Source: a virus. From it: DNA of 64,000 bases. Under the pieces are notes generated by a model that saw only the letters and a list, made by a program, of their open reading frames with translations, searched no databases and had not been told where the DNA came from. The stretch spans positions 1 through 64,000 of IMG/VR virus record IMGVR_UViG_3300022926_001804; one strand, written 5' to 3'. Shown here one piece after another: positions 8,941 to 51,742 of this stretch. How positions within the stretch are numbered: the first letter of the stretch is position 1; every line of letters begins with the position of its first letter. The translations under genes were made by a program, and so were the position numbers.

Positions 8941-9598
8941 ACTCTTTTATAGAAAGTATCTATATAAATTAAGAATACGCAACGATGTTGCCGGGCTGTT
9001 TAGAGGTCTTAATCTTAGCTATATTAAGTCTAAGTTAGACACTATGCAACAGTTTGCTGAAGGCGAGTTATCAATTCCAAGCCCCTTTAAATGGGGCTTG
9101 CGAACTCCTAAAAATGTATCTTTAGAAATGTTTATGGATGCATGTGTATTATATCGTACATTTTTAGATAATAAAGATAACTGCACAATTAGAGTTGAAG
9201 GACATGTCATTGACATTTATTCAAACGAAGAAGATTGGTTAGAGAAATTATCTAAGCAAATAAATTGCGAAGAGTTTCATGCTCCTAGCAATGAAAATAA
9301 AGAGTTTTTAAAAAACAATACTAATGTAGTAATTTGTAATGAAGAGGTTGTGGAATGGCCATATCAAATATATTTTGGAAAATTTATTGATCCTAACTTT
9401 GCTAGTTACTGTGAAAATAATTCTAATATTAAAATAGGAAAAACAGCATTAGAATGTGCTAGATCTAAAGGTTGGTGTTTAGGATTTTACTTTTGGACCA
9501 CTACTGAAAAGCAAGCAATGCTGGCTCAAATAGCACTAGGCGGAGGCGTACAAAAAATCATAAAATATGTAAGTCAGTCCGAATTGCATAAATACTAG
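8918..9598 (+). CDS. Conserved phage protein of unknown function
   Basis: A 227-residue protein with no recognised domain. The N-terminus is basic (MNRFNTTKLFYRKYLYKLRIR) and the middle is mixed alpha/beta. I start it at ATG 8918, inside the end of clpA; an in-frame ATG at 8894 lies deeper in clpA and is less likely. A GC-rich hairpin (9078-9100) lies within the coding sequence. Confidence 0.7.
   Translation: MNRFNTTKLFYRKYLYKLRIRNDVAGLFRGLNLSYIKSKLDTMQQFAEGELSIPSPFKWGLRTPKNVSLEMFMDACVLYRTFLDNKDNCTIRVEGHVIDIYSNEEDWLEKLSKQINCEEFHAPSNENKEFLKNNTNVVICNEEVVEWPYQIYFGKFIDPNFASYCENNSNIKIGKTALECARSKGWCLGFYFWTTTEKQAMLAQIALGGGVQKIIKYVSQSELHKY
9078..9100 (+). other. Perfect GC-rich hairpin inside a coding sequence
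   Basis: CAAGCCCC, loop TTTAAAT, GGGGCTTG: an uninterrupted 8-bp stem in otherwise AT-rich DNA, within the gene after clpA. No U-tract follows, so it is not a standard terminator; it could be an RNA-processing or attenuation structure. Confidence 0.35.
9587..9594 (+). promoter_or_regulatory. T4-late-type promoter box CATAAATA
   Basis: CATAAATA lies six bases before ATG 9600, overlapping the end of the upstream gene. Transcription from it would start at or just past that ATG, so it may instead serve the following genes. Confidence 0.35.
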
Positions 9599-9949: not shown

Positions 9950-10213
9950 ATGAAGAATTTTATTAACATTGTATTTGACAAAATTGAAGAAGTAGATGAT
10001 ATTGTAGTCGAATCAGTTGCTACAAGTGCATCTAATGCTTTAATGGAAAGTGAAACTAATTATTTGTTATTTGAAGATGAAAGCAAAACAATCTTAGCAG
10101 TTGAAACTCATGTGCAACTAACTGAAGAAGAGTCTAATGAAGTTGCAGTTAATATTGCAAATACATTGTTTGACCTAGGATATGAGAGTTTTGATATCGA
10201 GGTAAGTGTATAA
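9950..10213 (+). CDS. Small acidic protein of unknown function
   Basis: An 87-residue, strongly acidic protein (many Glu and Asp, few basic residues) with a GGAAG ribosome site. It shares its last base with the start of the next gene. I see no motif. It may assist the neighbouring 568-residue protein. Confidence 0.65.
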   Translation: MKNFINIVFDKIEEVDDIVVESVATSASNALMESETNYLLFEDESKTILAVETHVQLTEEESNEVAVNIANTLFDLGYESFDIEVSV

Positions 10214-11919
10214 TGAAATTTTTTCAAATTAAAGAAGCTATTAATTCTAAACAATTATTAGAAGCTAATACTGGATTAGAAGCTCAACATGCAATGCATG
10301 ATATAAAAACAATTAGTGATGCATTACCAAAAGTTCCTACAGAAGAAGTACAACAAAAAAAGTCACTAATTAATGATCTTAAAAATATTAAACAATTTTT
10401 AAGTAATTTTATTGAAAAAGCAAAGGCTGAGTTAAATCAACCTGCTACAGAATCAATTGAAACTGAAGCTACTCCTGATGTTAAAAGAAAGTTAGATCTT
10501 CTTAGTCCAAATGCTAAAAAACGTGCACCAGCAATATCTGCTACAGATAATCTTGATGAAGACGCACAAGAAATTTTAGCTGAAATTATGGATATGATCC
10601 AATGGGTCGAAGTTAATGTTGAAGATGAAAGTAAGAAAAAAGAAGGGATAGCTCGTGTTAACAGTTTGTTAGATAAAGTTACTAATAAATTCGTAGTACT
10701 GACACAAGAAAGAGATACTGCTCGTTCACAGCGTGATGAAGCAATTAATTTTGTGAAAGAAGTAACTGGTGTACTTGTACAATTAGGTAACAAAGTACAG
10801 GGCTTTGAAATTAAAGATCCATCTGAACTAAAAGGCAAAGATAAAACTTCTTATAATAAACTTGCAGTCAATGCAGAAAAGTTTACAAAGACTTTAAAGC
10901 AAGCATTGTTTGGTAAAATACTTGATATGCAAGAAGGAAGTGATGTAACCCAAGATGAGATCAAAGATTTTTTACAAGCCTGTGTCGACGGTAAAGTAAT
11001 TAATATGCTAAGACTTATTTCTGTAAACAAAGGTAACGTTAAAGATTTTGTAAATCCAAACTATCAAAAAGTTTTTGACATTTTTGTAAAAGAAAATATC
11101 TTTAGTTATTCGCCAGGATCAACTTCAGGAGCTATTGGCCCAGGAGAAATGGCATTATCGATGATGGGCAACCCTGCCGAAAAAGGTAAAAAGGGTGACT
11201 TGAAAATCGGCGATAAGGAAGTTGAAATTAAAGCTAGTGATCGAACAGGTGGGCGTTTTAATAGTAAAGCACTTGCAAAGGCAACTACAGGTTGGAAAAT
11301 TTGGGCTGAAAAGATTAATCAAATTTGTCAAAATGCTCCTAAAGATGCAACTATAAAAGTTAAACAAAAAGATGGCACATTTAAAAAAATGCCTATGACA
11401 AAATATGACGGTAATCAATATAATGTACTTAGAGGGAAAGCGAAACTAGGTAGTAGATATAACTGGAATGGCGGAGGTCTTGAAAAGTTAAACAATGAAG
11501 TATTAGAACCTTATTCAAACTTTGACATGACATATAATCTATTCCATGATACTATTAAAGGATTAGTTCAAAATTACGATCAAATTTCAAAACCGGCTTT
11601 TAACGACGATGGAACTCCAAATGAACATCATAAGCCTTTTGATCCAAGTGCGTTGATTGGCGGCGCAATTAAGCAGAATGGCGAAGTTGACATAGAAAAA
11701 ATGAATGTTGCGTATTCTAAAATTGCGTATACCAGTTATCATTTAGCAGATGGTATTACTACTATCATGTTATTAAGAACTGATAATCTAAATTTCACTA
11801 TAATTGACGACGGAGATGACTTAGTTGATAACATGGAACGTAATCAAGTTTCTACAGGCGGCGGATTTACATGGAATGATGATCAGCAATCGCCGACACC
11901 AGGATATATGTCAGCATAG
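10213..11919 (+). CDS. Putative internal head protein with PD-(D/E)XK nuclease-like motif
   Basis: A 568-residue protein starting MKFFQIKE, the N-terminal motif shared across this cluster. Residues 1-280 are helical and coiled-coil-like. At about residues 310-350 the sequence GEMALSMMG, then KKGDLKIGDKEVEIKAS, fits a restriction-endonuclease-like core (Glu, Asp-Leu, then Glu-x-Lys). A Gly/Asp-rich tail follows. T4-like marine phages carry related genes annotated only as structural. Nuclease activity is inferred from the motif alone. Confidence 0.6.
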   Translation: MKFFQIKEAINSKQLLEANTGLEAQHAMHDIKTISDALPKVPTEEVQQKKSLINDLKNIKQFLSNFIEKAKAELNQPATESIETEATPDVKRKLDLLSPNAKKRAPAISATDNLDEDAQEILAEIMDMIQWVEVNVEDESKKKEGIARVNSLLDKVTNKFVVLTQERDTARSQRDEAINFVKEVTGVLVQLGNKVQGFEIKDPSELKGKDKTSYNKLAVNAEKFTKTLKQALFGKILDMQEGSDVTQDEIKDFLQACVDGKVINMLRLISVNKGNVKDFVNPNYQKVFDIFVKENIFSYSPGSTSGAIGPGEMALSMMGNPAEKGKKGDLKIGDKEVEIKASDRTGGRFNSKALAKATTGWKIWAEKINQICQNAPKDATIKVKQKDGTFKKMPMTKYDGNQYNVLRGKAKLGSRYNWNGGGLEKLNNEVLEPYSNFDMTYNLFHDTIKGLVQNYDQISKPAFNDDGTPNEHHKPFDPSALIGGAIKQNGEVDIEKMNVAYSKIAYTSYHLADGITTIMLLRTDNLNFTIIDDGDDLVDNMERNQVSTGGGFTWNDDQQSPTPGYMSA

Positions 11920-11928
11920 GAAAATTAT

Positions 11929-12858
11929 ATGAAAAAAACTTTTAAAGATTATCTAGCAGAACAAGAAAAATTTAGAGATCACCTTGCTGAAGAAGAATAT
12001 GACAGACAGCGTGACAAAGATGCAGTAAGTGGTAAGCCTCGCAAATTATCCGTAGGCTCTGGTGGCGGAAAACCTAAAGGTTATAGCAAAGATGAAGCTG
12101 AACAGGCCGCATTGGATAACATAAAGAAAATGCCGCAATTTTCTAAAGAAGATGCTCCTAAAGCATTAAAAGTAGCAGGTGGAGTAGCACTCGGTACACT
12201 AACTGGTGTTGGCGGAGCATTGATTGGACAAATGTTTGCTCCATTCTTAGGTGGCGCGGCTGGCGGTATTGCTGGTGCTGTTGGAGGATATAAAGCAGGT
12301 GCAGGTGGAACTGATGCACTGTGGAACACTATAGCTAGTAAATTTGGAAGCGAAGAGCGAGCACAAAAAGTAGGTATGGCTCATGCTAAAGCCGCTGCCG
12401 ATGGTGAAAAAACATTTACTGTTGGAGATAAAGAATATCCTGTAACTCTAAAACCAGAAAACGCAGGAAAAGCTGTACAAGCAGTTAAACAAGCTGTTGC
12501 AACAAGTGAAACTATTAGAATTAAAGAACTTGCAGGTATTAGTGAAGAAACTTACGACGGCGATGACTTTTATGAAGCATATGGTGACCTTTGGTTTAAT
12601 GAAGACGAAATGCTAGACGAAGCAGAATATCAAGGACGCAAAGTCAAACTTGGCAAGCCAATGCGTGGCGATGTTAAAAAGTTTAAAGTATATGTTAAGA
12701 ATCCTAAAGGCAACGTAGTTAAAGTTAACTTTGGTGATCCTGACATGAAGATTAAAAAAAGTAATCCAGCACGTAGAAGAAGTTTCCGTGCAAGACATAA
12801 CTGTGATAATCCAGGACCACGTACTAAGGCACGTTACTGGTCGTGTAGAAAATGGTAA
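11929..12858 (+). CDS. Putative internal head protein with glycine-zipper hydrophobic segment
   Basis: A 309-residue protein. The N-terminus MKKTFKDYLAE resembles the T4 internal-protein targeting sequence. Residues about 80-125 form Gly/Ala-rich hydrophobic stretches with GxxxG patterns, suggesting membrane insertion. After an acidic region containing ELAGISEE and MLDEAEYQ comes a basic C-terminal module (residues about 240-309) ending with RARHNCDN and RYWSCRKW. This module looks like a separable nucleic-acid-binding piece. It could be ejected with the genome; that is inference. Confidence 0.6.
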   Translation: MKKTFKDYLAEQEKFRDHLAEEEYDRQRDKDAVSGKPRKLSVGSGGGKPKGYSKDEAEQAALDNIKKMPQFSKEDAPKALKVAGGVALGTLTGVGGALIGQMFAPFLGGAAGGIAGAVGGYKAGAGGTDALWNTIASKFGSEERAQKVGMAHAKAAADGEKTFTVGDKEYPVTLKPENAGKAVQAVKQAVATSETIRIKELAGISEETYDGDDFYEAYGDLWFNEDEMLDEAEYQGRKVKLGKPMRGDVKKFKVYVKNPKGNVVKVNFGDPDMKIKKSNPARRRSFRARHNCDNPGPRTKARYWSCRKW

Positions 12859-12867
12859 GGAAGTAAT

Positions 12868-13212
12868 ATGAAGTTATTTGAATTTGTAGAAGATAGAATG
12901 GGACAAGAAAAAGATAAACTTCCGTACGATGTAGTCGAAGACATTCATTTTCATATGATTAGTGACGATTCATTTTATAGAAAACATTATCTACCATGTA
13001 TGGATAGTTTAGGTGAAGATGGCATGGATGAAGAAAAAGTTATGCCTATGATTCATAAATGCGTTAATCACTATTGCAATAAATATGACATTAATAAAGA
13101 ACCAAAAGATTTACTTTCTAACGAAGAAAAAGCGGACTTAGTAAAGAGAGTTTTAGATTACGAAAAAAATCCACCCAAAGGAGATGACGGTGCGTTTAAG
13201 ACATCTATTTGA
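12868..13212 (+). CDS. Small protein with the shared MKLFEFVE N-terminus
   Basis: A 114-residue acidic protein beginning MKLFEFVE, one of the cluster with hydrophobic-x-Glu at residues 6-8. Several His and Cys (EDIHFHMI, LPCMD, HKCVNHYCNKYD) could bind metal, but no known motif matches. It has a GGAAG ribosome site and overlaps the next gene by 23 bases. Likely part of the same packaged set; function unknown. Confidence 0.6.
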   Translation: MKLFEFVEDRMGQEKDKLPYDVVEDIHFHMISDDSFYRKHYLPCMDSLGEDGMDEEKVMPMIHKCVNHYCNKYDINKEPKDLLSNEEKADLVKRVLDYEKNPPKGDDGAFKTSI

Positions 13213-14635
13213 AGCTGAAACAAAAACAGCCGTTGCATCTTTTGGTAGACTTAATCCTCCTACCACTGGCCATAATGCTATGGTTGATGAAATTAAAAAA
13301 GTGCCAGGGGATCACTTTTTATTTTTAAGTCATTCGCAAGGCGCTAAAAACCCAGATGCTAAACCTGGAACTAAAGCAGGTGAAAACAAAGATCCTTTAA
13401 GTTTTTCAGAAAAACTACCTTTGGTTAAACAAGCATTTCCGAACGTAAATGTAGGATATGCTGATGTTACTAAGATCTTTGACATGCCTGTAAAATTATA
13501 TAAATTAGGATATAAAAAACTAATTATAGTTGCTGGCAATGATCGTATGTCTTCATATAAAAGTATATTTCCTAAATATAATGGTGTAGAAGGCGATCAT
13601 GGTTATTACAAATTTGACAATATTGAATTTGTAGAACTTACAAGAGATGAAGAAGCTGAAGGTGTAGAAGGCATGAGTGCTAGTAAACTACGTCAGGCTG
13701 TTCGTAACAATGATTTTGAAAGTTTTAAAAAAGGATTAATTGCTGGTAATCCACAACAATTATTTGACACTATCAAAGAAAGACTTGCTGTAGATAGTTT
13801 AGGAGTAAAACAAGAAGAACCTATAGAAGAGCCTATAGAAGAGCCTGCAAAAGAAGGTATCGGTGCTATGGCTAAAGGTGCTGTAGGTCATGTTAAAAAT
13901 GCCGCAACAGCAGGCAAATTAATTTTAAAGTATGACCAAACAGGTAGAGAAGAAGATGCATTTGCGGCGATCAAGCACGGCTGGCAATGGATTAAAAATC
14001 CTAAGATGCGAAGAGGTATTGTAAATCTTGTTAAAAAATATGCAACAAAACAAGGACAAGATTGGCCAACTGCTGTAGCTCATATTAAAAAGAACACAGG
14101 AATAGATGTCTCTAATGTAAACGAATCACAAGATACTCCTACAAGAGACAAAGAAGATTATAACGCAAAGAGAAAAGCATTACAAGATATACAAATGGAT
14201 CCTAATACAGCTAACGATCCAGATCTAAAAAAAGAATTAATTCGACGTCTTGCGTCCTTAGAAAAAAATAAGCCACAAGAAATTGCCGAACTTAAAGTAC
14301 AACAACAACGTCCAAAGATTGAGGTAATGTATAATATTGCTGATCGTAAAGACGATAAACCTTTTCCATTAAGTTATAAAGATACTGGCGGCGCAAGCAC
14401 AGGTGGACAAGTAATGATCACACCACAACAAGCACAAAAATTTATTAAATTCTACGAACAACGAGCCGATGATGAAAAAATATTAATGCAAAAAGCATTG
14501 TCTAGTGTTAGCGGTACAATGAACTTGTTAAAGAATCTTGGTATGGAAGCTAATTCTATACTACCTAATAACCCAGATGCAGAAATTAAAAGTCCTGAAG
14601 AGAAACTTAGAGCTAATTTAGCAAAGGGCGTGTAA
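13190..14635 (+). CDS. Nucleotidylyltransferase-like domain fused to a long helical tail; GTG start
   Basis: Residues 1-200 form a cytidylyltransferase/NMN-adenylyltransferase-like Rossmann domain: FGRLNPPTTGHN (equivalent of the HxGH loop), LIIVAGNDR, and GMSASKLRQAV (the SxxxxR-type loop). Residues 205-481 are a charged linker with two 12-base repeats (bases 13821-13845) and a helical tail. I choose GTG 13190 over ATG 13184 because AAAGGAG lies six bases before GTG, and because the start then reads VRLRHLFE, aligning with its neighbours' eight-residue motif. Similar domains occur in T4-like cyanophages; substrate unknown. Confidence 0.7.
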   Translation: MRLRHLFEAETKTAVASFGRLNPPTTGHNAMVDEIKKVPGDHFLFLSHSQGAKNPDAKPGTKAGENKDPLSFSEKLPLVKQAFPNVNVGYADVTKIFDMPVKLYKLGYKKLIIVAGNDRMSSYKSIFPKYNGVEGDHGYYKFDNIEFVELTRDEEAEGVEGMSASKLRQAVRNNDFESFKKGLIAGNPQQLFDTIKERLAVDSLGVKQEEPIEEPIEEPAKEGIGAMAKGAVGHVKNAATAGKLILKYDQTGREEDAFAAIKHGWQWIKNPKMRRGIVNLVKKYATKQGQDWPTAVAHIKKNTGIDVSNVNESQDTPTRDKEDYNAKRKALQDIQMDPNTANDPDLKKELIRRLASLEKNKPQEIAELKVQQQRPKIEVMYNIADRKDDKPFPLSYKDTGGASTGGQVMITPQQAQKFIKFYEQRADDEKILMQKALSSVSGTMNLLKNLGMEANSILPNNPDAEIKSPEEKLRANLAKGV

Positions 14636-14862
14636 TGGATATTGAACGTTTAAAACAGCTTGCAGGTATAAATGAATTCAAAGGATGGACACAATACACT
14701 CCTGAGAATATCTCTCAGACTGGTACAGAAAAACGTAAAATAGAACGCGAAAAAAATATTAAACCTGGTACAGATGAATGGTTTAAACTTTGGTTTAGTT
14801 TACCTCATATGACTGGTTCTGTTAATAAATCTCCAGGATTTCGAGGACGTAAACGCAAATGA
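14635..14862 (+). CDS. Small basic protein with LAGINE site
   Basis: A 75-residue protein starting MDIERLKQLAGINE, then a basic tail ending in FRGRKRK. ELAGISE-type strings also occur in the 11.9 kb protein, which hints at a common processing site. It overlaps both neighbours by one to four bases. Function unknown; DNA binding by the basic tail is plausible. Confidence 0.6.
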   Translation: MDIERLKQLAGINEFKGWTQYTPENISQTGTEKRKIEREKNIKPGTDEWFKLWFSLPHMTGSVNKSPGFRGRKRK

Positions 14863-16718
14863 AATTTCATCAAATCAAAGAAGGCGTAGGTAGAATTGTT
14901 AAAGGTGTTAATACAACACCTGATGTAGGTCCTGACGAAGTTAAAATACAAGCGGCTAAGTTTGGTAATACTGTTGACAAAGATGGACGACCACCTACAC
15001 TAAGCAAAAAAGTTAAAGGTTCCAAAACAAATGTATTGTTTAACTTAGGTATGGTTGAAAGTGTTGAAGAACGCTCGCTTACCAAAAGTGAAAAAAATAA
15101 AAAAGAAAAGATAGTTAAAGGCATGAAAAAAGCCAAAGGCGATTTTAAAGATCGTTATGGCAAAGATGCAAAAGCTGTAATGTATGCTACAGCAACAAAG
15201 ATAGCTAAAAAGAAAAAAAAGAAAAAAACTAACGAAAGCAATATTACTAGAAAAGATCTAAAAGATCAAATTCTGCAAGGTATTAAAGTTGAATTAGAAC
15301 ACACTGACGATCCTAAAATTGCTTTAAAGATCGCTATTGATCATATAAAAGAGGATCCTGCATATTACGATAAATTAAAATTTATTGAAAATAAAGAAGT
15401 AGCGCAACCAAGTGAAATTTATGTTGACATGGATGGTGTGCTTGCAGACTTCTTTGGTAGTTGGAAGAAACTTATTGGAAAAGATTGGCGTCAGATTGAT
15501 GACATTGAACCAGCGTTACAAAAGATACGTGACACAGATGACTTTTGGTTAAAGATACCTCCTACTAAAAATGCAAATAATTTGTTAAGTATTATCAAAC
15601 AAATTAAAGGTAGCTACAATATATTAAGTGCTCCTTTACCTAATGATCCTAATTCAGAACCTCACAAGCGCGAATGGATTGAAAAATATCTAAAAAGTTT
15701 TCCTCCTAATAAAGTTATCATTACACAAGACAAAGCGAAGTATGCAACCCAATCAGACGGTACACCTAATATATTAATTGATGACTTTGGACAAAACGTT
15801 GCTAAATGGGAAGCCGCAGGTGGTGTTGGATTTAAACATAAAGATCATAAGTTTGAAAGAACGGCTCGCAATTTAGCCGCTCATTTAAGACAGCCTGCAA
15901 AAGAAACTTATACAAGAGAAGAACTACCTCAAATTAGTAGAAAAGATTTAAAACACATTTATTATACTGTAGAAACTATTAAAGTTGCAGACATAAAACC
16001 TATCCAAAAAGAACGCATCAAAGAAAATTTTACAAGACAACTTAATCGTGTGCAAAAAGGAAAATACAGTCCAATTATTGTTGACTGTGAAAACAAAATT
16101 ATAAATGGTCATCATAGATATGACATTATTAAAATGTTAGAGATGGAAGAAATAACTGTTTATAAACTTCCTTTGTATGTTGAAAATCTAGTAGAGTTTA
16201 ATAAATTAACTAAAAAAATAGGAGCAGGTGCTCTAGCAGGTGCAATGGCATTAGCACCTATGGGCAAAGCGTTTGCTGGAGATGCTCCTACTGATCCATT
16301 GCCTAACAAGCAGACATCTACTATGGTGCAGAAAGATGTGGGCGGTAAGCAAGATTTATCAAAAATTCAAGCACCAGTAAAAAATGATTTTTGGAAAGTT
16401 ACAATAAACTATAAGGGCAAGGATGTTAATTTAAAACTACCATTTGACGCAGGAACCAATAAAAAACAGATAAAACAATTTGTTGACGATATGATGTCTC
16501 AACAAGGTGTAAAGGATTACGCAGTTAAGGATATCGATACTCTTAATAAGGTTCCTATAGATCAATCCATACTGAAAAAGTTAGTTCAAGAATTAGAAAA
16601 AAGAAACGGAAAACAGAGTATTCCATATCTTGCCGGAATGGCAAAGAGAGCAGGTGCTAAACCAGGTGCAGACAATGCACACGCAACCGCGGCAATGAAG
16701 GCATACTTAGGAAAATGA
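14859..16718 (+). CDS. Multidomain putative internal protein: DUF5661-like, HAD phosphatase, ParB-like
   Basis: A 619-residue mosaic starting MKFHQIKE. After a Lys-rich region (about 75-125, with nine consecutive Lys/Ala/Lys-type residues) come a DUF5661-like helix bundle (about 130-175, KVELEHTDDPKIALKIA), a 5'(3')-deoxyribonucleotidase-like HAD domain (DMDGVLADF from Asp190 or Asp192, to about 345), a ParB/sulfiredoxin-like domain (about 375-440, INGHHRYD near residue 415), an Ala/Gly-rich hydrophobic segment (about 455-475) and a C-terminal Lys-rich domain. Such fusion is unusual; substrates are unknown, but nucleotide dephosphorylation fits the HAD motif. Confidence 0.65.
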   Translation: MKFHQIKEGVGRIVKGVNTTPDVGPDEVKIQAAKFGNTVDKDGRPPTLSKKVKGSKTNVLFNLGMVESVEERSLTKSEKNKKEKIVKGMKKAKGDFKDRYGKDAKAVMYATATKIAKKKKKKKTNESNITRKDLKDQILQGIKVELEHTDDPKIALKIAIDHIKEDPAYYDKLKFIENKEVAQPSEIYVDMDGVLADFFGSWKKLIGKDWRQIDDIEPALQKIRDTDDFWLKIPPTKNANNLLSIIKQIKGSYNILSAPLPNDPNSEPHKREWIEKYLKSFPPNKVIITQDKAKYATQSDGTPNILIDDFGQNVAKWEAAGGVGFKHKDHKFERTARNLAAHLRQPAKETYTREELPQISRKDLKHIYYTVETIKVADIKPIQKERIKENFTRQLNRVQKGKYSPIIVDCENKIINGHHRYDIIKMLEMEEITVYKLPLYVENLVEFNKLTKKIGAGALAGAMALAPMGKAFAGDAPTDPLPNKQTSTMVQKDVGGKQDLSKIQAPVKNDFWKVTINYKGKDVNLKLPFDAGTNKKQIKQFVDDMMSQQGVKDYAVKDIDTLNKVPIDQSILKKLVQELEKRNGKQSIPYLAGMAKRAGAKPGADNAHATAAMKAYLGK

Positions 16719-17176
16719 GAATATTCGAACTAATAGAAAACAACGAAAACTTTGCTAACGCAACAAAACAAGATTTTCTTGCATTTAAAAAATTTGTCAA
16801 AGGTACTACACATTTATTTAAGAATTATAATAATATGTCCGAAGAGGAACAAGACGAGTTGCTTGCAGATCTTGTAAAATTACAATTTGATAGTAATTTA
16901 ATGAATAGTTTTCCTAAGTGGAAAGAGTATGCTATTAAAACCATGAAAAATTTGGATGACGAAAGAATTCAAAAAGTATTTAAACAGGCAGGACTTGTTG
17001 AAAACTTTGCTGACGGTAAGAAAAAAGAAACTATAGAAGAAACTATTCGTAAGCAAGGTGACAAGTATGTTATCTACAGTAAAGACGGTAAAAAGAAACT
17101 TGGCACATACGATAGTCGTAAAGCAGCCGAAAAGCGTCTAGGACAAATAGAGTATTTTAAACATGCTGGTAAGTGA
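16715..17176 (+). CDS. Putative internal protein with C-terminal basic module
   Basis: A 153-residue protein starting MRIFELIE. The first 90 residues are helical and acidic. After GLVENFADGK comes a basic module (about 105-153, YVIYSKDGKKKLGTYDSRKAA and RLGQIEYFKH) that recurs in many T4-like marine phage proteins. It overlaps genes on both sides, and the ENFADGK junction is duplicated in the next gene. Cleavage before the module by a prohead protease is inferred. Confidence 0.65.
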   Translation: MRIFELIENNENFANATKQDFLAFKKFVKGTTHLFKNYNNMSEEEQDELLADLVKLQFDSNLMNSFPKWKEYAIKTMKNLDDERIQKVFKQAGLVENFADGKKKETIEETIRKQGDKYVIYSKDGKKKLGTYDSRKAAEKRLGQIEYFKHAGK

Positions 17177-17202
17177 GATTACAGAAAACTTTGCTGACGG
17201 TA
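17000..17202 (+). repeat. Direct repeat encoding ENFADGK in two adjacent genes
   Basis: The 20-base sequence GAAAACTTTGCTGACGGTAA occurs at 17000-17019 and again at 17183-17202. It encodes the same ENFADGK junction in two successive genes, in each case directly before a basic module, and suggests module duplication or recombination. Confidence 0.6.
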
Positions 17203-17369
17203 AAGTAAAAGGCAAAAGCAGACCAGGACGAGTAAAGAAGTCTGGTGCTAGTTGCAATGGTAGTGTTACAGCATTACGCAAACGTGCTAAAAATGCAAGT
17301 GGTGAAAAGGCTAAAATGTACCACTGGTGCGCCAACATGAAATCAGGTAGAAGCAAAAAAGGTAAATAG
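17163..17369 (+). CDS. Small basic Cys-containing protein, putative internal DNA-binding peptide
   Basis: A 68-residue, very basic protein starting MLVSEITE, then NFADGKVKGKSRPGRVKKSG, ASCNGSVTALRKRAKNASG, and MYHWCANMKSGR near the end. This last segment is strongly conserved in T4-like marine phages in my recollection. Two Cys and the high Lys/Arg content suggest nucleic-acid binding in the head. It starts within the preceding gene. Confidence 0.65.
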   Translation: MLVSEITENFADGKVKGKSRPGRVKKSGASCNGSVTALRKRAKNASGEKAKMYHWCANMKSGRSKKGK

Positions 17370-17373
17370 TATT

Positions 17374-18441
17374 ATGAGATTAAGAGAAATTACATCTAAC
17401 ATTAAACAGCCAATTAACGAATTTGATATTTTAGGCGGATTAAAATGGCTTGGCAGGGCCGCACTAAGTGGGCCAGCAACTGCCGCACAAATTGCGTTAA
17501 CACCTAGTTCTACATCCGCATGGGACACTACTGATGCTCCGGCTATGTTGTATAATAAATTACGTGCAGACGGACGAGATGAAGCAACTGCAAATGCCGC
17601 GGCATTAGAACTTAGAGATAGAATTAGTCGAGGCGATCACACCGCTATTCAAACATACAGAGATGCTACAGGGGACACTGGCCAATTGCCATGGGACTTA
17701 CAAGATTTACAAACTTCAATTGATCAAAGAATTGCATCAGGTGGCGGACGTGGAAACGGTGCCGCTGAACTTGCTCAAAGGCGAGCAGATGCGGCAAATG
17801 GTGTTCCAGGAGCAGGTCCTGCTCCAACAGACAGTCCAAAAGCAGATACTACTGCTCCACAACAGCCATCTACACCTGGTGCAAGTGATTCATCTAATGC
17901 GCCAAGTAGCACAACGGATACTAGACCATCAACTACTGCTCCTAAGACTACTACTGCTCCTAAACAACCAGATGCTGTTCCAACTTCTGTTGCAAATTTG
18001 CCTAATGTTGTTAAAGACGCAGGCGCCGCTCAAGCACTAGCACAATCTAATCCACAAACATCAGCACAATGGGCTGATGGTATTGCAAAAGCAACTGGTG
18101 GTACGCTAGGTGCATCAACTGTACAGTCGTTAGCACAAGGTGCTATGAAATATGCTTTGCCAGCGGCAGCTGTAGTTGCATTGTTATACGGTGGTAAAAA
18201 ATTGCTTGATTATGCAGGTTCTAAAAAGAAAAAAGAATCAATAGGTGAAAATAGCTCTGCTCCAATAGTTGCCGCTAATGTGGCATCTGTTGCTAATCCT
18301 CAACACGCAAAAGGCCATGTTGGAAAAGATAAAAATGGCTTACCAAAGAAAAACTCAAAGAAACAACCTGGTACTAATTTAGTAATAAATGCACTAGATG
18401 ATGACGAGGGCTTCTTTGGCTCCAAGACAATCAAAAGATAA
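17374..18441 (+). CDS. Putative internal protein with Pro/Thr/Ser linker and one TM segment
   Basis: A 355-residue protein starting MRLREITS. Residues 20-140 are Ala-rich and helical; about 145-210 is a low-complexity Pro/Thr/Ser/Ala linker with short repeats of TTAPK type; a hydrophobic segment (about 262-285, YALPAAAVVALLYGGKKLL) could span a membrane; the tail is Lys-rich. This is the one member of the cluster with Ser rather than Glu at position 8, though NEF follows at residues 15-17. A membrane-interacting ejected protein is possible. Confidence 0.6.
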   Translation: MRLREITSNIKQPINEFDILGGLKWLGRAALSGPATAAQIALTPSSTSAWDTTDAPAMLYNKLRADGRDEATANAAALELRDRISRGDHTAIQTYRDATGDTGQLPWDLQDLQTSIDQRIASGGGRGNGAAELAQRRADAANGVPGAGPAPTDSPKADTTAPQQPSTPGASDSSNAPSSTTDTRPSTTAPKTTTAPKQPDAVPTSVANLPNVVKDAGAAQALAQSNPQTSAQWADGIAKATGGTLGASTVQSLAQGAMKYALPAAAVVALLYGGKKLLDYAGSKKKKESIGENSSAPIVAANVASVANPQHAKGHVGKDKNGLPKKNSKKQPGTNLVINALDDDEGFFGSKTIKR

Positions 18442-18444
18442 ATA
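18437..18444 (+). promoter_or_regulatory. T4-late-type promoter box GATAAATA
   Basis: GATAAATA overlaps the stop of the upstream gene, 18 bases before ATG 18462, and supports late expression of the following gene. Confidence 0.5.
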
Positions 18445-18461
18445 CTGTATAGGAAAACACA

Positions 18462-19424
18462 ATGAGAGAAAAACATTTAAAAGAAACTGGTTTAGCCGAT
18501 ATGGCATTTAAGGTTGAACAAGACCACGAAGTTCAAATGGCTCGTGCCGAATTATATAAACTAGCTAAGTATGCAATCAAATTACACGAAATGCTTAAAG
18601 GTGTATCAGAGCAACAAGGTTTAGAAGGTTGGGTGCAAGCTAAGATTACAAAGGCCGCTGACTATGTTTCAAGTGTTTATCATCATATGGATTACGAAAC
18701 TAAGTTTGAAGAAGTAACAGAATCCAATAAATCAATTGTAGAAGGCATCGACTCTCCAATAGTGACGATGACTATTCCAAACACAACTCCTGAGATGGCA
18801 GAAAAAATGGAGAGAATTGCTAACGAAAAGAACATCGAGTTTTCAAAACAAGGAAACACTGTTTTTTTGAAGGGTAAAAGAATTGATATGACAATGCTTA
18901 CAACTAAAATGGCTATTGCTCAGACAAACATACCAATGGTTCCTGTTGAACCAAAGCGTGGCACTCCAGGTAATCCAATCGGCATGTCTAAGGATCAAAT
19001 GGCAGATCCTGCTAATCAAGACCTAATGCAAAAAGCAAGACGTATGGATGCATTAGGTGATAGTGTAAACTATAAAGGTTTTTTAAGCAGTTTATTAGAA
19101 GAAAAAGTAACAAATAAGTTATCTGAAAAAGTAGAAATGTGTCCAAAAGCATGTTGCGGGAAACCTGTAACAGAATGCTCATGTGGACCAGATTGTAAAC
19201 ATTGTGATTGCTACGAAAAGAACAAGGCAATGAAGGAATCTAAAAATAACCTATGTGAAGATTGCGGTAAAGAAAAACTTACCAAAACAGAAATGACAGA
19301 AATTGCTAATCTAGAAGAAGGCAAAAAACACGGCAATAGTAAAGTTTATGACAAATGCTGGAAAGGCTGTCGTAAAGTTGCAGGCAAAAAACGTGGTGAG
19401 CCAGGCTCGTGCAAGTGTGACTAA
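18462..19424 (+). CDS. Putative internal protein with Cys-rich metal-binding-like C-terminus
   Basis: A 320-residue protein starting MREKHLKE. Residues 1-85 are a helical domain (ARAELYKLAKYAIKLHEML, GLEGWVQAKITKAADYV) seen repeatedly in T4-like marine phages. From about residue 225 to the end there are about fifteen Cys in closely spaced pairs (CPKACCGK, CSCGPDCKHCDC, CEDCGKEK, KCWKGCRKV, CKCD), suggesting zinc or other metal binding. NLEEGKKHGNS precedes the last basic module and fits a prohead-protease site. A late-type box precedes the gene. Confidence 0.65.
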   Translation: MREKHLKETGLADMAFKVEQDHEVQMARAELYKLAKYAIKLHEMLKGVSEQQGLEGWVQAKITKAADYVSSVYHHMDYETKFEEVTESNKSIVEGIDSPIVTMTIPNTTPEMAEKMERIANEKNIEFSKQGNTVFLKGKRIDMTMLTTKMAIAQTNIPMVPVEPKRGTPGNPIGMSKDQMADPANQDLMQKARRMDALGDSVNYKGFLSSLLEEKVTNKLSEKVEMCPKACCGKPVTECSCGPDCKHCDCYEKNKAMKESKNNLCEDCGKEKLTKTEMTEIANLEEGKKHGNSKVYDKCWKGCRKVAGKKRGEPGSCKCD

Positions 19425-44770: not shown

Positions 44771-45934
44771 ATGGGTACTTTACGATTAAAACGAGGCACT
44801 AAGACTGCACTTCAAAGCAGTCCTGGTTATACGCCAGCTGAAGGTGAACTCGTTTATACAACAGATAGCAAAGAAGTCTTTGTAGGTGACGGAGCCACAC
44901 AAGGTGGTATTCCAGTATCAGTATCAACGCAAAACTTAGAAGATCTAGGCAATGTACAAGCATTAGCCGCACAAAAAGATCAAATCTTAGTTTATAATGG
45001 TGCAAACTGGGCGGCGACGGATAACCCAGCACTAGACATTCGTGGTAATATTTACGGTGACGATTCAACGCTCCTAGTTGATGCAATTAACGGCAAAATT
45101 GTTGGACCTATTGAAACTACTTCTGTTATTAGTAGTGGCAATATTGTAGGTGATGTAATTGGCGATACTACAGGTACACACACTGGTAACGTAATTGGTG
45201 ACAGTACAGGTACACACTTTGGTAATACTACTGGATTCCATACAGGTGATACTAAAGGTAGTGTGTTTGGTGATGATAGCGGACTACTAGTAGACGGTAT
45301 TAAAGGTTTTATTGTTGGACCTATTCTAACTGAAACAACTCTTACAATTAGACAAGACGCACCTGCTCCAGTTAACAGTCTCTTAATTCAAGCACATTCT
45401 GCAGATGGTGCAACAGGACCAAAAATTAGAACTGAAGGTTCACGTGGTACTCTTGACAATCCGTTAGCTGTAATTGGTGGCACTACAGGTGACGCACTTA
45501 CAGATATTCACGGTTTTGGTTGGGACGGAACTCAACAAACATTAGCTGGACAAATTAAAATTGCAGTTGATCTAGACGAAACAGTGTCAGACGGTATTAT
45601 ACCTGGAAGAATATTATTCCTACCATCAAACCAAACGGGCAATGTTACACTTGCACAAGTTATGACTTGGAATAGTAAAGGCAGACTTGGCTTAGGTACT
45701 AACAGACCTGATAACGTATTACACGTAGCAGGCGATGCAAAAATTACTACTGACCTTGAAGTACAAGGTACAGCAACAATAAACAACAGTATTAACACTG
45801 GATATCATCAGTTTGCTAGTTTGACTACTATTGAACGTGATGCACTTACTCCAGTTAACGGAATGGTTATTTATAATTCAGATACTGAAAAATTCCAAGG
45901 CCGCGAAAACGGATCATGGGTTAACTTAGTCTAA
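44771..45934 (+). CDS. Tail-fibre/appendage-like protein
   Basis: A 387-residue protein. It opens MGTLRLKRGTKTALQ followed by a GYTPAEGELVYTTDSKEVF-type motif, as in many phage fibre or baseplate appendage proteins of marine phages. A Gly/Asp/Thr/His-rich repeat region (about 115-175), duplicated 18-residue units, and a helical-beta C-terminus (KFQGRENGSWVNLV) follow. Likely binds the host surface. It ends tail-to-tail with the reverse ligase gene, sharing 9 bases. Confidence 0.7.
   Translation: MGTLRLKRGTKTALQSSPGYTPAEGELVYTTDSKEVFVGDGATQGGIPVSVSTQNLEDLGNVQALAAQKDQILVYNGANWAATDNPALDIRGNIYGDDSTLLVDAINGKIVGPIETTSVISSGNIVGDVIGDTTGTHTGNVIGDSTGTHFGNTTGFHTGDTKGSVFGDDSGLLVDGIKGFIVGPILTETTLTIRQDAPAPVNSLLIQAHSADGATGPKIRTEGSRGTLDNPLAVIGGTTGDALTDIHGFGWDGTQQTLAGQIKIAVDLDETVSDGIIPGRILFLPSNQTGNVTLAQVMTWNSKGRLGLGTNRPDNVLHVAGDAKITTDLEVQGTATINNSINTGYHQFASLTTIERDALTPVNGMVIYNSDTEKFQGRENGSWVNLV
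45059..45325 (+). repeat. Duplicated 18-residue unit flanking a Gly-rich repeat in the fibre gene
   Basis: The 54-base units 45059-45112 and 45272-45325 encode two near-identical stretches (DDS-x-LLVD-x-I-x-G-x-IVGPI). Between them lie G-[DN]-x-x-G-x-H repeats. Such modular repeats let fibres lengthen or recombine. Confidence 0.75.
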
Positions 45935-45937
45935 GTT
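45923..45937. terminator. Short inverted repeat at the convergent gene end
   Basis: AACTTAG-T-CTAAGTT spans both stop codons of the convergent fibre and ligase genes. It could serve as a weak bidirectional terminator, but the one-base loop is too tight for a full hairpin and no U-tract is strong. Confidence 0.35.
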
Positions 45938-47089
45938 ATACTGTTTAAGTAATTCTTTTCTACTTATTTTACCTTGTCCTTTACGTGGAATACTTTCTAC
46001 GTAAAAGACCTTCTTAGGTATTTTATACCATGCAATTTCTTTAGATAATTGTTCTGTATCTATTTGACCAACAACTACTGCATAAACACTATCGTAGCCA
46101 AACACTACACAATCTATTGCTCCACATTTAATTAATGCTTCTTCTACTTCGTAAGGCATAATTTTAATACCTTCTTGGTTAATTACATCTTTAACTCTAC
46201 CAGTAATAAACAAAAATCCTTCATCGTCGATATATCCTAAGTCTCCAGTATGATAACCATCAACTACAATTTCACCATTATCAAATGTTACAGTTTTATT
46301 TGGTAACACAAATCCAACGCTACCATGTTTTTGAGGATAATGCATAATACTAATTGTTCCTGTTTCATTTAGCCCATATGAATCAGTTGTAATACAATTA
46401 AAATAATTTTGTACTTCATATTTAAAATCTTTGTACATAGGTGCTCCGACTGTACGAATGTGTCGTACACTCATAGTTTCGTACGGTACTTTGCAATACT
46501 TCATTAATTTTAATAAAATACTAGGATTAGCTACAAAGAACGTAGGTTTAACTTTAGGCCATGATTCCCATACGTTATCTAAAACATAATATGTTGCACC
46601 AGTTCTATAACAAATTGAGAATAATTGAAAGCCTATACAAGCCCAAAGTGGAATACAATTTACAGTAGAATCTTTATTTGTAATATTAGCATGTATTTGT
46701 ATGTTTGTATCTAAACCTTCAGTGTCATGATCATCTCTTGTTAGTGGTATTAATCTAAGTGCATCAGTACTACCGCTTGATACAAACGCTGTTATCTCGT
46801 CATCATTACATTGATTATATCTAGGCTCTGGTAATACATCGTCCCATATATCAACATCATAATACTTACGTTCGATCTCTGTTGCTTTGTAGTCCATTAC
46901 TACAACACTGCATACACTCATTACTCCGTATATTTTCATTAGATTAGTACAATTACTGTATACTCCTAATCTACAAGTTTTATCGTATCCTGCATCAATT
47001 AATTCTTTAGCATAACTTTGTGCTAAAGAATCAAATTGTTCTTTTGTATATGTATCACCATTCTCGAAAGAAAGTATTATATTGTTCAC
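45926..47089 (-). CDS. AMP-forming acyl/aryl ligase-like protein (ANL superfamily)
   Basis: A 387-residue adenylating enzyme. Motifs: AFVSSGSTDALR (phosphate loop, about 101-112), YGLNETG (A5), HTGDLGYIDDEGFLFITGR (A7/A8), and a C-terminal domain with RKGQGKISRKEL bearing the catalytic Lys. It is shorter than normal (about 500) because the N-terminal region is reduced. It would activate a carboxylic acid as the AMP ester, then pass it to CoA or another acceptor. Last gene of the TctA-TctC operon, overlapping TctC by four bases. Confidence 0.8.
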   Translation of the reverse strand: MNNIILSFENGDTYTKEQFDSLAQSYAKELIDAGYDKTCRLGVYSNCTNLMKIYGVMSVCSVVVMDYKATEIERKYYDVDIWDDVLPEPRYNQCNDDEITAFVSSGSTDALRLIPLTRDDHDTEGLDTNIQIHANITNKDSTVNCIPLWACIGFQLFSICYRTGATYYVLDNVWESWPKVKPTFFVANPSILLKLMKYCKVPYETMSVRHIRTVGAPMYKDFKYEVQNYFNCITTDSYGLNETGTISIMHYPQKHGSVGFVLPNKTVTFDNGEIVVDGYHTGDLGYIDDEGFLFITGRVKDVINQEGIKIMPYEVEEALIKCGAIDCVVFGYDSVYAVVVGQIDTEQLSKEIAWYKIPKKVFYVESIPRKGQGKISRKELLKQYNLD

Positions 47090-48138
47090 TTTTTAATTAT
47101 TCCTGGTTTAAGTACACTAGCTAATCCTAATGCTTCTTTATTGAATTTAACAAGATTTGTTAATGCATCTAGTGTTACAAGACTCATTAATGTATCTCTA
47201 TGTGCATTTCCGTCAGCGCCAATTTTCCAATTATAAACGCCAACTTTGTTTTCTATAATTTTCTTACTATCTTTATTTAAAGACATATCATATAATGCTT
47301 GCTGTAATTTGGCAGTATTTGGATTGCCTTTGCGTACCCACAATGCTTTTTGCATACCGTCGCGAAAACTTTTTACAAGTTTATATGAATCATAGAAATC
47401 TCCGCTTGGCTTAACACCCCAACGTTTTTCAAATAGTATTTCAAGTTGGTATCCAGGATAGTTTGGATCATCTCCATGATCTCCTGTTTCACTGTTTAGA
47501 ATACCATGATGAAACCAAATTTCTGAATTATCATCTGATTCAACATGCTTTTTATATGCCGCTGGATTTTCTCTAGTAGCGTTTAGTTCACCACGTTTAA
47601 ATGCTAGTCGACGTTCGCCACCGCTCATGCCTTTAACCCATGTTACGTTCTCTTTAAAACAAGCGATATATTCATCAACTGTTTTGTCTGGTCCACATAG
47701 TAGAAGTGTCATTGCGAATGCTTCTGGAACCATACCTGAACCTGCCGCAAATCTAATACCACCATAGTCTAAATCAATAGCACGATTCTTGCCTACAATA
47801 ATATTCAAGTTCATAAGTCCAATACTTTCGTATTCGGCATAGTTATAATCAACTTCTTCTTGTAGGAAACTTACACCGTTACCACCATGACTTACCATAA
47901 TTACATCATTGTCATATTGCATTTCGTTATGAAATGTATCAAATCCTGGAATGTCTCGAGCGCCAGGAATATGTACAATATTAATATCTTCATTGAGATA
48001 TTTTTCTAATTCTTTAGCAACGATTTCTGCCCAAACACTTGTACCATCTCCTGGTTTTTGTGGTACTACCATCGTATAATCTGCATTTGCTACAGTAGCA
48101 AACATTACTAATACTAAACTCATAATTAACTTACGCAT
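47086..48138 (-). CDS. TctC-type periplasmic substrate-binding protein
   Basis: Extracytoplasmic binding protein of a tripartite tricarboxylate transporter. A signal peptide (MRKLIMSLVLVMFATVANA, cleavage AxA) precedes a 331-residue mature domain with the opening YTMVVPQKPGDGTSVWAEI and later strands typical of Bug-family receptors. It overlaps the TctA gene by eight bases. Its ligand should be a carboxylate but cannot be read from sequence. A phage encoding it together with TctA is unusual. Confidence 0.78.
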   Translation of the reverse strand: MRKLIMSLVLVMFATVANADYTMVVPQKPGDGTSVWAEIVAKELEKYLNEDINIVHIPGARDIPGFDTFHNEMQYDNDVIMVSHGGNGVSFLQEEVDYNYAEYESIGLMNLNIIVGKNRAIDLDYGGIRFAAGSGMVPEAFAMTLLLCGPDKTVDEYIACFKENVTWVKGMSGGERRLAFKRGELNATRENPAAYKKHVESDDNSEIWFHHGILNSETGDHGDDPNYPGYQLEILFEKRWGVKPSGDFYDSYKLVKSFRDGMQKALWVRKGNPNTAKLQQALYDMSLNKDSKKIIENKVGVYNWKIGADGNAHRDTLMSLVTLDALTNLVKFNKEALGLASVLKPGIIKK

Positions 48139-49564
48139 AATCTATTCTCCTTTTTGATTTTAATGCCCAAATTAGTGTTACAATTATTATAAAAACTAAT
48201 CCTAAGAATATTGGTTTATCTAACAGTTTATCAAATGTATAAAGTCCTGACATTTGAATTGTAAGAGCCTCTATTCTGTCAGATAGAATAAAGGCAAATA
48301 GCAGTGCAGGTCTGCTAAATTTGTATTTCTTTGCTAATAGTCCTACCACACTACATATAGCAAGTATAAAGTAATCTTCCCAACCGCCTGTATATTGTAC
48401 ACAAGCAAGTACTATAAAGCCTAATAGCAACGGAAAGTAGTATTTGTAGGGTATTTGTGCTATTCGGGCTATAAATGGCGTCGTAAACAAGCATACAGCG
48501 CCTACAAGCACTGTTGCAAGCATAAAGCCGTATAACATACTATCAAAGAATTTAGTGTCATTTGCAAGCTCTAAGGTACCTAATTCAAAATTTAAATATG
48601 CAAACAAGGCCATTACAATGGCAGCAAAGGGTGCGCCTGGAATACCAAACAGTACTGTAGGAATCATGCTGGTTGCTTTTTGTGCATTGTTAGCACCTTC
48701 TGGTCCTATAACACCTTTGATATTTCCATTACCAAACTTGTCTTTAGGATGACTTGCAACTGTCGAACTGTATGCCATCCAATCTGCAACTGCGCCGCCT
48801 AATCCGGGCAATAAGCCGACAAATGCGCCAATGATTCCTCCACGCAATGCATCACGTTTATTATTCCAGACAGCAAGTATTCCTTCTTTAGTTTGTGTAC
48901 CATTTGCAAATGCTGGATTGCTAGTATTTGTACGATATTTAAGACCGCTTAATAATTCTGGAATAGCAAACAATCCGGCAACTAACGGCATTAATTGTAC
49001 GCCTGCGCCAAGATATTCCCAACCGCCGGTCCATCGGTCTACATTAGTTGTAGGATCAACTCCTATTAATCCTATAAACATACCAAAGCACAATGCAATT
49101 ACACTTCTAACCCAAAACTTATTTGTTATAAATGTTACGCATACTAACGCTAACATTGTAAATGCCCATAATTCTGGAACACCAAATATCATTATTAGAT
49201 CAGTATAATAAGGTAACAAGAAGAATGTAAGTGACCCCCATATTAATCCGTTCAATGTACTTGTAGTTACTGCGGCGCTAATAGCATATGTTGCTTTACC
49301 CTGTAGTGCTAATGGAAAGCCGTCTACCATAGTTGCCGCGGCTGAGTTTGCACCAGGTATTCCTAACAGTACACCTGTATAAGTATCACCTGTTGTGCTT
49401 GCGGCTACAACTGCCATAACAAATATAACTGCTAGATACGGATCTGGAAATAAAGTAATAAATGAAAATACAAATATTAAACCTGTAGTTGCTCCTGCAC
49501 CTGGCAGAATACCAATTATTAATCCATAAAATGTTCCTGCGAGTAGTGCCAATATCGAAGCCAA
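48131..49564 (-). CDS. TctA-type transporter permease
   Basis: Large membrane subunit of a tripartite tricarboxylate transporter. 477 residues with about 11-12 hydrophobic segments. The family signatures are clear: a first Gly-rich segment GILPGAGATTGLIF, later LGIPGANSAAATMVDGFPL, FVGLLPGLGGAVADWMAYS and IPTVLFGIPGAPFAAIVMALF. First gene of a three-gene reverse operon with TctC and an ANL ligase. The small TctB subunit is not seen. AAGGAG lies upstream of the start. Confidence 0.9.
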   Translation of the reverse strand: MASILALLAGTFYGLIIGILPGAGATTGLIFVFSFITLFPDPYLAVIFVMAVVAASTTGDTYTGVLLGIPGANSAAATMVDGFPLALQGKATYAISAAVTTSTLNGLIWGSLTFFLLPYYTDLIMIFGVPELWAFTMLALVCVTFITNKFWVRSVIALCFGMFIGLIGVDPTTNVDRWTGGWEYLGAGVQLMPLVAGLFAIPELLSGLKYRTNTSNPAFANGTQTKEGILAVWNNKRDALRGGIIGAFVGLLPGLGGAVADWMAYSSTVASHPKDKFGNGNIKGVIGPEGANNAQKATSMIPTVLFGIPGAPFAAIVMALFAYLNFELGTLELANDTKFFDSMLYGFMLATVLVGAVCLFTTPFIARIAQIPYKYYFPLLLGFIVLACVQYTGGWEDYFILAICSVVGLLAKKYKFSRPALLFAFILSDRIEALTIQMSGLYTFDKLLDKPIFLGLVFIIIVTLIWALKSKRRIDYA

Positions 49565-50358: not shown

Positions 50359-51075
50359 CACGGCTTTAGCAAACTCTACTGTTTTGATAAAAGCTGTTTC
50401 GTTAAATTTAAGATCAAACTTGTTACATAATGTTAAGAAAAATTCTTTATCGTATAATTGAGAAACTTCTTTAATAATAAAATCTTTATCATCTGCCTTT
50501 TGTTTGTAACCGTTTATCTGCATAGTAAGGTCGTTAATTAAACATTCTTTAAATGTTATTCCGTGTTCGTTTGCTTTATCAGTATATAAATCTTTAAAAA
50601 GATAATTTCTATTTTTTGGATCTACATAATAATGACATGTACTATTCATCCACCTAGTATATAATAGTTCTATATCTTCAGGAATGATTACAAAATGTTT
50701 TGCCGGATTAAAAAAATTCTTTACTCTATCTAAATCTGAGTGCAGTGTATATACAAAATTGTTAGGATAAAGATGTTGTTTCCATTTTTTAATTTCGTCT
50801 TGTGAATATTCTCTACCTTGCTTTTCGGCCATATCTAACACAGGAGGAATAGTTTTGTCACATACTCCTTTACCTAAAGCACCTTTAAATCTTTTATTGA
50901 AATGTAATCTTGAAAAATTAGAATCGTGCATAATATCAAACGGTTCCCAAGGATTGATTCCGTTTTGTATATGATCATACCAACTGACATTATTACAACT
51001 AGAAATAATTCTTCCTGCAATATGTCCACCAGATCCCATAGGAAAATTAACTGTAATTGAATTATTATACATCAA
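50347..51075 (-). CDS. Sulfotransferase-like P-loop protein (tentative)
   Basis: A 242-residue protein. NFPMGSGGHIAGRIIS at residues 9-24 resembles the PAPS-binding 5' loop of sulfotransferases, and the Asp/Arg-rich middle and HFVIIPEDIELLYTRW could be the second nucleotide site. The match is weak and no PAPS source is seen in the window. Last gene of the six-gene reverse operon, overlapping the ANL core gene by 11 bases. Confidence 0.45.
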   Translation of the reverse strand: MMYNNSITVNFPMGSGGHIAGRIISSCNNVSWYDHIQNGINPWEPFDIMHDSNFSRLHFNKRFKGALGKGVCDKTIPPVLDMAEKQGREYSQDEIKKWKQHLYPNNFVYTLHSDLDRVKNFFNPAKHFVIIPEDIELLYTRWMNSTCHYYVDPKNRNYLFKDLYTDKANEHGITFKECLINDLTMQINGYKQKADDKDFIIKEVSQLYDKEFFLTLCNKFDLKFNETAFIKTVEFAKAVSHL

Positions 51076-51742
51076 GTCTTCCTAAATAATATAATCCTTT
51101 ATTCTTATATGTTACAAGATCGCCTGTTGCAAACCAATCGTCATATATACACATTGGACTTTTTACATATAATTGATTTTCTTTAACTTTATAATTGCAC
51201 CAAAATGTATTGCCCAAAATATTATCTTCTGCTGTGTCTCCAGGCTTGTACAACTTATTAATTACACATGGTCCAATTTCACTCATACCCCAATTTGCTA
51301 AAACTGTAGCACCTTGATCTATAAATGCTTGTATGTGATGTTTAGGAATTGGATCACTGCCCATTGCAACAAATTTACCCGTCAAATCAGCTGTTTTAAA
51401 GCCCTTAGTGCTTAGTAGTGCTTCGCACATAGCAGGAGCAATAAACGTGTGTGTATGACGCTTAAAACGCTTTAAAAAGGTATATGCGTTGAACTTTTCA
51501 ATAGTTATATCACACCCTAATGTATATGCTGGCAAACTTTGAAGTAATAACCCACCTGCATGAGTCATTCTAGTAACTGTGTATACACTACTATTTTTGG
51601 TTAGTTTTTGAGCAGTAATTGCAGTATTAATGCAGTGTTTTAGATTTTCAGGATCTCTATAAATTTGCTTAGGTGTACCTGTAGTACCACTAGAACTTAT
51701 ATTACATCCTTGTTTTAAGATAGTGTCAAAGTTCAGTTCCAT
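51065..51742 (-). CDS. Minimal AMP-binding (ANL) core protein
   Basis: A 225-residue protein. It has the phosphate-loop SSSGTTGTPK (about 16-25), NWGMSEIGP (A5) and DDWFATGDLVTYKNKG with YYLGRLDV (A7/A8 start) but stops there, lacking the whole C-terminal domain with the catalytic Lys, and also lacks the usual first 100-150 residues. It may adenylate with help from a partner, or be a specialised half-enzyme. It overlaps the aminotransferase gene by 17 bases. Confidence 0.75.
   Translation of the reverse strand: MELNFDTILKQGCNISSSGTTGTPKQIYRDPENLKHCINTAITAQKLTKNSSVYTVTRMTHAGGLLLQSLPAYTLGCDITIEKFNAYTFLKRFKRHTHTFIAPAMCEALLSTKGFKTADLTGKFVAMGSDPIPKHHIQAFIDQGATVLANWGMSEIGPCVINKLYKPGDTAEDNILGNTFWCNYKVKENQLYVKSPMCIYDDWFATGDLVTYKNKGLYYLGRLDV

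Follow-up and report, generated by a model that had tools for sequence, protein, structure and literature searches.

N-terminal peptides shared by a gene cluster of a T4-like marine phage resemble the capsid-targeting sequences of T4 internal head proteins

Introduction

The internal proteins IPI-IPIII and Alt of phage T4 carry a capsid-targeting sequence (CTS) that is cut by gp21, a short N-terminal peptide with an L/I-x-Glu end on unrelated, mostly basic bodies. In IPIII, the N-terminal ten residues suffice for targeting and packaging; residues 4 and 7 target the protein, residues 8 and 10 direct its processing, and a version with Asp at position 10 is targeted but not processed (PMC9026906). 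The giant phages phiKZ, 201phi2-1 and SPN3US pack a large head protein cargo, from which a gp21-like protease removes the propeptides by cutting on the C-terminal side of Glu (PMC9026906, PMC10052503). In marine phages, mass spectrometry detected the nucleotidyltransferase T4-GC190 in S-SM1 virions (PMC3037559), and the nucleotidyltransferase ORF154 together with several enzymes without a structural role in S-CREM2 virions, where the authors considered that such enzymes may be co-purifying contaminants (PMC10665884). The available portions of these two papers name no targeting sequence (PMC3037559, PMC10665884). Our literature search for capsid-targeting sequences in cyanophages and marine phages returned only work on T4, P1 and giant phages, which is not proof of novelty.

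Here, we describe a gene cluster of a T4-like marine phage whose protein starts are, in our judgement quite probably, capsid-targeting propeptides of the T4 internal-protein type on head-delivered proteins, a reading drawn by analogy. Like the T4 proteins, those of the cluster combine a short N-terminal L/I-x-Glu peptide with unrelated bodies, most of which (8/10) are net positive; the genome likewise encodes a gp21-type protease and late-promoter-like sites, and one start, MKKTFKDYLAE, matches the layout of MKTYQEFIAE, with which T4 IPII and IPIII begin (MKTYQEFIAE-A; hyphens mark actual or putative cuts). Unlike in T4, the tags are mostly eight residues long, at least seven tagged proteins are encoded in one operon, several of them with recognisable enzyme domains, and the cluster also has a second, LKxLAG-type start. 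The giant phages have diverged head proteins, whereas here the genes form a compact cassette flanked by clpA and the DNA polymerase gene. The virion nucleotidyltransferases of S-CREM2 and S-SM1 are homologous to that of the cluster, and the S-CREM2 protein has a T4-like tagged start, but the host and most other cargo differ. We place the cluster within the T4 capsid-targeting system as a variant, and not as a system of another kind.

Results

Ten neighbouring genes with shared starts

The virus record is 145,946 bases long, and the window covers its bases 1-64000. Ten + strand genes form one block (10213-19424), flanked by a clpA-like gene and the DNA polymerase gene, and this placement is kept in many relatives. 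The original prediction had spoken of nine neighbouring genes; the block of shared starts stands, and the number becomes ten because 14635-14862 had been overlooked. The starts that it quoted are all real and lie where it had placed them. The genes are as follows.

10213..11919, + strand: 568 aa, tag MKFFQIKE; N-terminal half helical, C-terminal domain PD-(D/E)xK-like, putative nuclease
11929..12858, + strand: 309 aa, T4-IP-like tag MKKTFKDYLAE; internal IRIKELAGISE; C-terminal SFRARHNC module (phrog_7595)
12868..13212, + strand: 114 aa, tag MKLFEFVE; body without assigned function
13190..14635, + strand: 481 aa, tag VRLRHLFE (GTG start); cytidylyltransferase/NMNAT-like nucleotidyltransferase
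14635..14862, + strand: 75 aa, second tag type MDIERLKQLAGINE; Ile-x-Glu ends at residue 14
14859..16718, + strand: 619 aa, tag MKFHQIKE; DUF5661, NT5C-type deoxynucleotidase and ParB-like domains; net charge +34
16715..17176, + strand: 153 aa, tag MRIFELIE; basic C-terminal module (phrog_3684)
17163..17369, + strand: 68 aa, tag MLVSEITE; small basic MYHWCANM module
17374..18441, + strand: 355 aa, tag-like start MRLREITS without Glu8
18462..19424, + strand: 320 aa, tag MREKHLKE; conserved helical DHEVQMARA domain and exchangeable Cys-rich tail

The tag sits on otherwise unrelated bodies, since domain content differs between the cluster proteins; the predicted nucleotidyltransferase and ParB-like domains were both recovered in our domain assignments, the former with a match to phrog_3041 (1.5e-35). 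Net charge is positive in 8/10 proteins, the exceptions being 10213 (-6) and 12868 (-9). VRLRHLFE, as originally written, is read from the GTG at 13190, with AGGAG some 6 bases upstream and a better-spaced ribosome-binding site than the ATG at 13184, from which MTVRLRHLFE would be made. Searches of the 68-aa protein (17163) and of 10213 against annotated phages by tblastn gave no matches, and a PADLOC run returned nothing useful.

The product of 10213 had been called nuclease-like. In its C-terminal domain E312, D329, E338 and K340 are invariant in six homologues, forming an E...D...ExK signature. A fold search of the full-length protein and of this domain gave no significant match, and comparison of the domain model (pLDDT 87) with the PDB yielded no match at E <= 0.001, NaeI appearing only at E ~0.8. 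The signature thus speaks for the assignment and the fold searches do not, for which reason the nuclease is a motif-level guess.

Elsewhere in the window, on the - strand, we noted a tripartite tricarboxylate transporter TctA gene (48131-49564; Pfam E 1.9e-93), an unusual phage cargo. It is adjoined by a gene with a signal-peptide-like start (47086-48138, - strand), and AMP-binding enzyme genes and an aminotransferase class IV gene lie beside the transporter (45926-47089 and 51065-52565, - strand).

The motif is confined to the starts of the cluster

When the GTG start at 13190 is used, L/I/F-x-Glu ends at residue 8 in 7/10 cluster genes. The exceptions are 17374, with Ser8 (MRLREITS), 11929, with Glu11, and 14635, with Glu14. 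With longest-ORF starts, [LIVFM]-x-E ends at this residue in 6/10 cluster genes and in 0/128 other called genes (Fisher 2e-8), a value that is post hoc because the cluster was chosen after its starts had been seen. Not a single called gene outside the cluster in the 146-kb genome carries the residue-8 motif, and the predicted pattern, with residue 6 hydrophobic and residue 8 Glu in most starts, is borne out (7/10, vs 0/128 other genes by longest-ORF starts). When residues 2-20 were shuffled, 7/10 was reached in 0/20,000 shuffles, with a mean of 0.35. Deeper inside the cluster proteins the density of the motif equals background (0.018 vs 0.019), so the enrichment is positional.

Related phages conserve the tags

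The comparison of starts that had been suggested was made in IMG/VR relatives: the residue-8 motif persists in 84/253 distinct starts, where shuffling predicts 8. The relatives also provided a partly independent test beside the post hoc statistic, in that M-x4-[LI]-x-E is carried by 81/433 genes located between clpA and the polymerase and by 5/358 outside this interval (P = 2e-17). In a set of 171 loci, made up of genome pieces and IMG/VR relatives, the motif is most frequent at residues 5 and 8, with roughly fourfold the level seen at most other positions. Within the cluster families 63-92% of distinct starts have phi-x-E at residues 6-14, except for the 12868 family (7%), and the flanking genes (polymerase, clpA, dnaJ, small genes) have it in 0-26%; the family test was among those framed after sequences had been seen, as was the T4-like pattern used below. 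In the 12868 family, Glu8 is found in 1/14 starts, and relatives mostly keep M-x-phi-x-[DE]-phi; like the Ser8 of 17374, this weighs against the tag reading.

Among the 84 tags of eight residues, M-[RK]-[LI]-[RK]-[EQD]-[LI]-x-E is the layout found most often, and the residues that follow the tag Glu are often small. Residue 6 is Leu or Ile in 82/84 although the filter admitted five residues, as in the L/I-x-E of T4. Residues 2-5 and 7 differ from tag to tag but 6 and 8 do not, which indicates that the motif is under selection. Modules are visibly swapped between cluster proteins in relatives, behind separate tags, and the MYHWCANM module of 17163..17369 is fused there to other cluster proteins. 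That each polypeptide has its own tag despite different module fusions is expected of a per-protein tag.

Protease, capsid, scaffold and promoter-like elements

The gp21-type protease, whose presence elsewhere in the genome had been proposed as a check, was found outside the window: a Peptidase_S77 prohead protease is encoded at 121581-122228, and its His and Ser align with those of T4 gp21. In the phage's own major capsid protein, TKRYLAE-NATAGA aligns with the T4 cleavage site FLTE-AEIGG, and its YLAE consists of the same four residues that end MKKTFKDYLAE of 11929. The Glu of this site is invariant among the 59 relatives' capsid sequences listed, and the next residue varies (N, T, S, A). 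By sequence, the capsid YLAE represents a matching gp21-type cleavage motif at which cutting is putative. The scaffold protein begins with MLDALKALFE, and the product of the gene that follows the portal begins with MILRELF, which is similar to the MFLRELFE seen in cluster relatives.

A second motif, [LIVMF][KRE]x[LIVM]AG[LIVF], is carried by only three called proteins in the genome: it lies inside 11929 (residue 198), at the start of 14635 and at the extreme C-terminus of the scaffold (genome 122243-123343), where it is conserved in 75 relatives. This link of two cluster proteins to the scaffold was absent from the original prediction.

Two late-promoter-like elements accompany the cluster.

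9586..9598, + strand: T4-type late-promoter-like element GCATAAATACTAG, 12 bases before gene 9600
18436..18448, + strand: late-promoter-like element AGATAAATACTGT, 24 bases before 18462

The gene-9600 element shares GCATAAATACTA with the region upstream of a prohead-block gene at genome 119707, and NATAAATAC elements also precede prohead and tail genes. Judged from T4, the NATAAATAC elements would be late promoters and the cluster would be expressed late.

Tagged starts among virion proteins of cultured phages

Translated genes of S-CREM2 revealed T4-like starts on the nucleotidyltransferase ORF154 (MKNFSSFLTE-A), the SAM hydrolase ORF6 (MKDFDSFLEE), the kinase ORF14 (MKRFDAFLTE), ORF13 (MKDLHSFLTE) and ORF136 (MQTFSMFFSE). 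Set against the S-CREM2 virion list (PMC10665884), T4-like tags occur in 5/28 non-tail virion proteins, including the SAM hydrolase, the kinase and the nucleotidyltransferase, and in 2/165 undetected ones (P = 8e-4), using a pattern written after some of the S-CREM2 starts had been seen; a looser phi-x-E test on the same list gave 12/28 and 20/165, respectively (P = 3e-4). We also observed that the virion-detected, Cas9-annotated ORF12 of S-CREM2 (OR473000) has a CTS-like LRFASFMAE-A at residues 17-25, and its annotated start may be misplaced, too far upstream.

Other nucleotidyltransferase homologues start MKKFSAFLSE (Syn9), MKKFSAFLTE (S-CAM22, S-RIM2), MKSFTSFFTE (P-TIM68) and MKKFSEIIE (Melnitz). 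The HTVC008M homologue starts MKTLKELLRK, without a clear site, which weighs against the tag reading. As a control, the SFRARHNC module starts directly with its domain, untagged, in phages without a gp21 match (Kolga, CRP-901). In the gp21-positive Flavobacterium phage immuto, the neighbours of an SFRARHNC-type gene start MENTFDLKKFLVE and MISIYNILKE and are possible further tagged cargo.

Discussion

The protease, the capsid site, the late-promoter-like sites, the conservation of the motif and the virion mass spectrometry of homologues all fit the T4-type set of packaged head proteins that had been predicted. Following the T4 analogy, the cluster proteins would be made late in infection, alongside the head proteins, and their first 8-11 residues would dock them onto the prohead scaffold core. 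The gp21-type protease would then cleave after L/I-x-Glu, and the freed proteins would remain in the head beside the DNA, to be carried along with it into the next host. Docking, cleavage and ejection are in this phage extrapolated from T4. The hydrophobic targeting residues of T4 lie at -6 and -3 from the cut Glu, a spacing that the 11929 tag shares (F at -6, Y at -3), but those of the eight-residue tags lie at -5 and -2, one residue nearer the cut, so that these tags are a variant and not a copy of the T4 sequence and the docking geometry may differ. Given the behaviour of Asp10 in T4, a tag whose Glu is replaced by Asp or Ser may still target its protein yet escape cutting.

Among other explanations, the one that fares best, though we consider it unlikely, is that the tag docks the proteins to the scaffold but that they belong to the prohead core, are mostly degraded or expelled in maturation and are not host cargo. 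The scaffold and the gene after the portal do have similar starts, and T4 core proteins are mostly removed (PMC9026906); against this, the bodies contain enzyme domains, and homologues persist in mature virions (PMC10665884, PMC3037559). Somewhat less probable still, the starts could serve for docking to some other late structure, or reflect how translation starts in this operon, in either case without relation to the head protease. That E5 is enriched as much as E8 and that some starts lack a cleavable Glu would suit such a role, but Leu/Ile6 with Glu8, the same residues in capsid and scaffold proteins, the T4-like tags of relatives and detection in virions do not. We regard it as very improbable that the starts were merely copied by gene duplication or 5'-end module swapping and have no present function: module shuffling is visible in relatives, but residues 6 and 8 are fixed while their neighbours at 2-5 and 7 vary. 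The explanation by chance, or by a composition common to short N-termini rich in Lys and Glu, gains some weight from selection of the cluster after the pattern was noticed but has next to no probability; it is ruled out by the shuffles of residues 2-20, which never match the window count, by 84 tags against 8 expected in relatives, by 0/128 other genes and by the clpA-polymerase comparison.

The proposed cargo combines a nucleotidyltransferase and a deoxynucleotidase with ParB-like and putative nuclease domains and with small basic modules that contain Cys, and it suggests a role in take-over of host DNA and nucleotides or in counter-defence. The chances seem to us evenly balanced that a general code by which enzymes are loaded into the head, readable from sequence, is common to marine T4-like phages; it would use interchangeable N-terminal tags, with the cargo modules swapped behind them. 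We give the same even weight to the tag types proposed for it, namely the eight-residue M-x-phi-x-E-[LI]-x-E, the T4-like ten-residue type and the LKxLAG type that also ends the scaffold. With such a code, virion cargo would be predictable from the first dozen residues, even for the Cas9-annotated protein and the SAM hydrolase of S-CREM2. Several cyanophage proteomics papers report virion enzymes and leave the contaminant question open; the start signature makes this question testable in many sequenced marine phages, and it would assign a function, packaged and delivered with the DNA, to many genes that are annotated as hypothetical.
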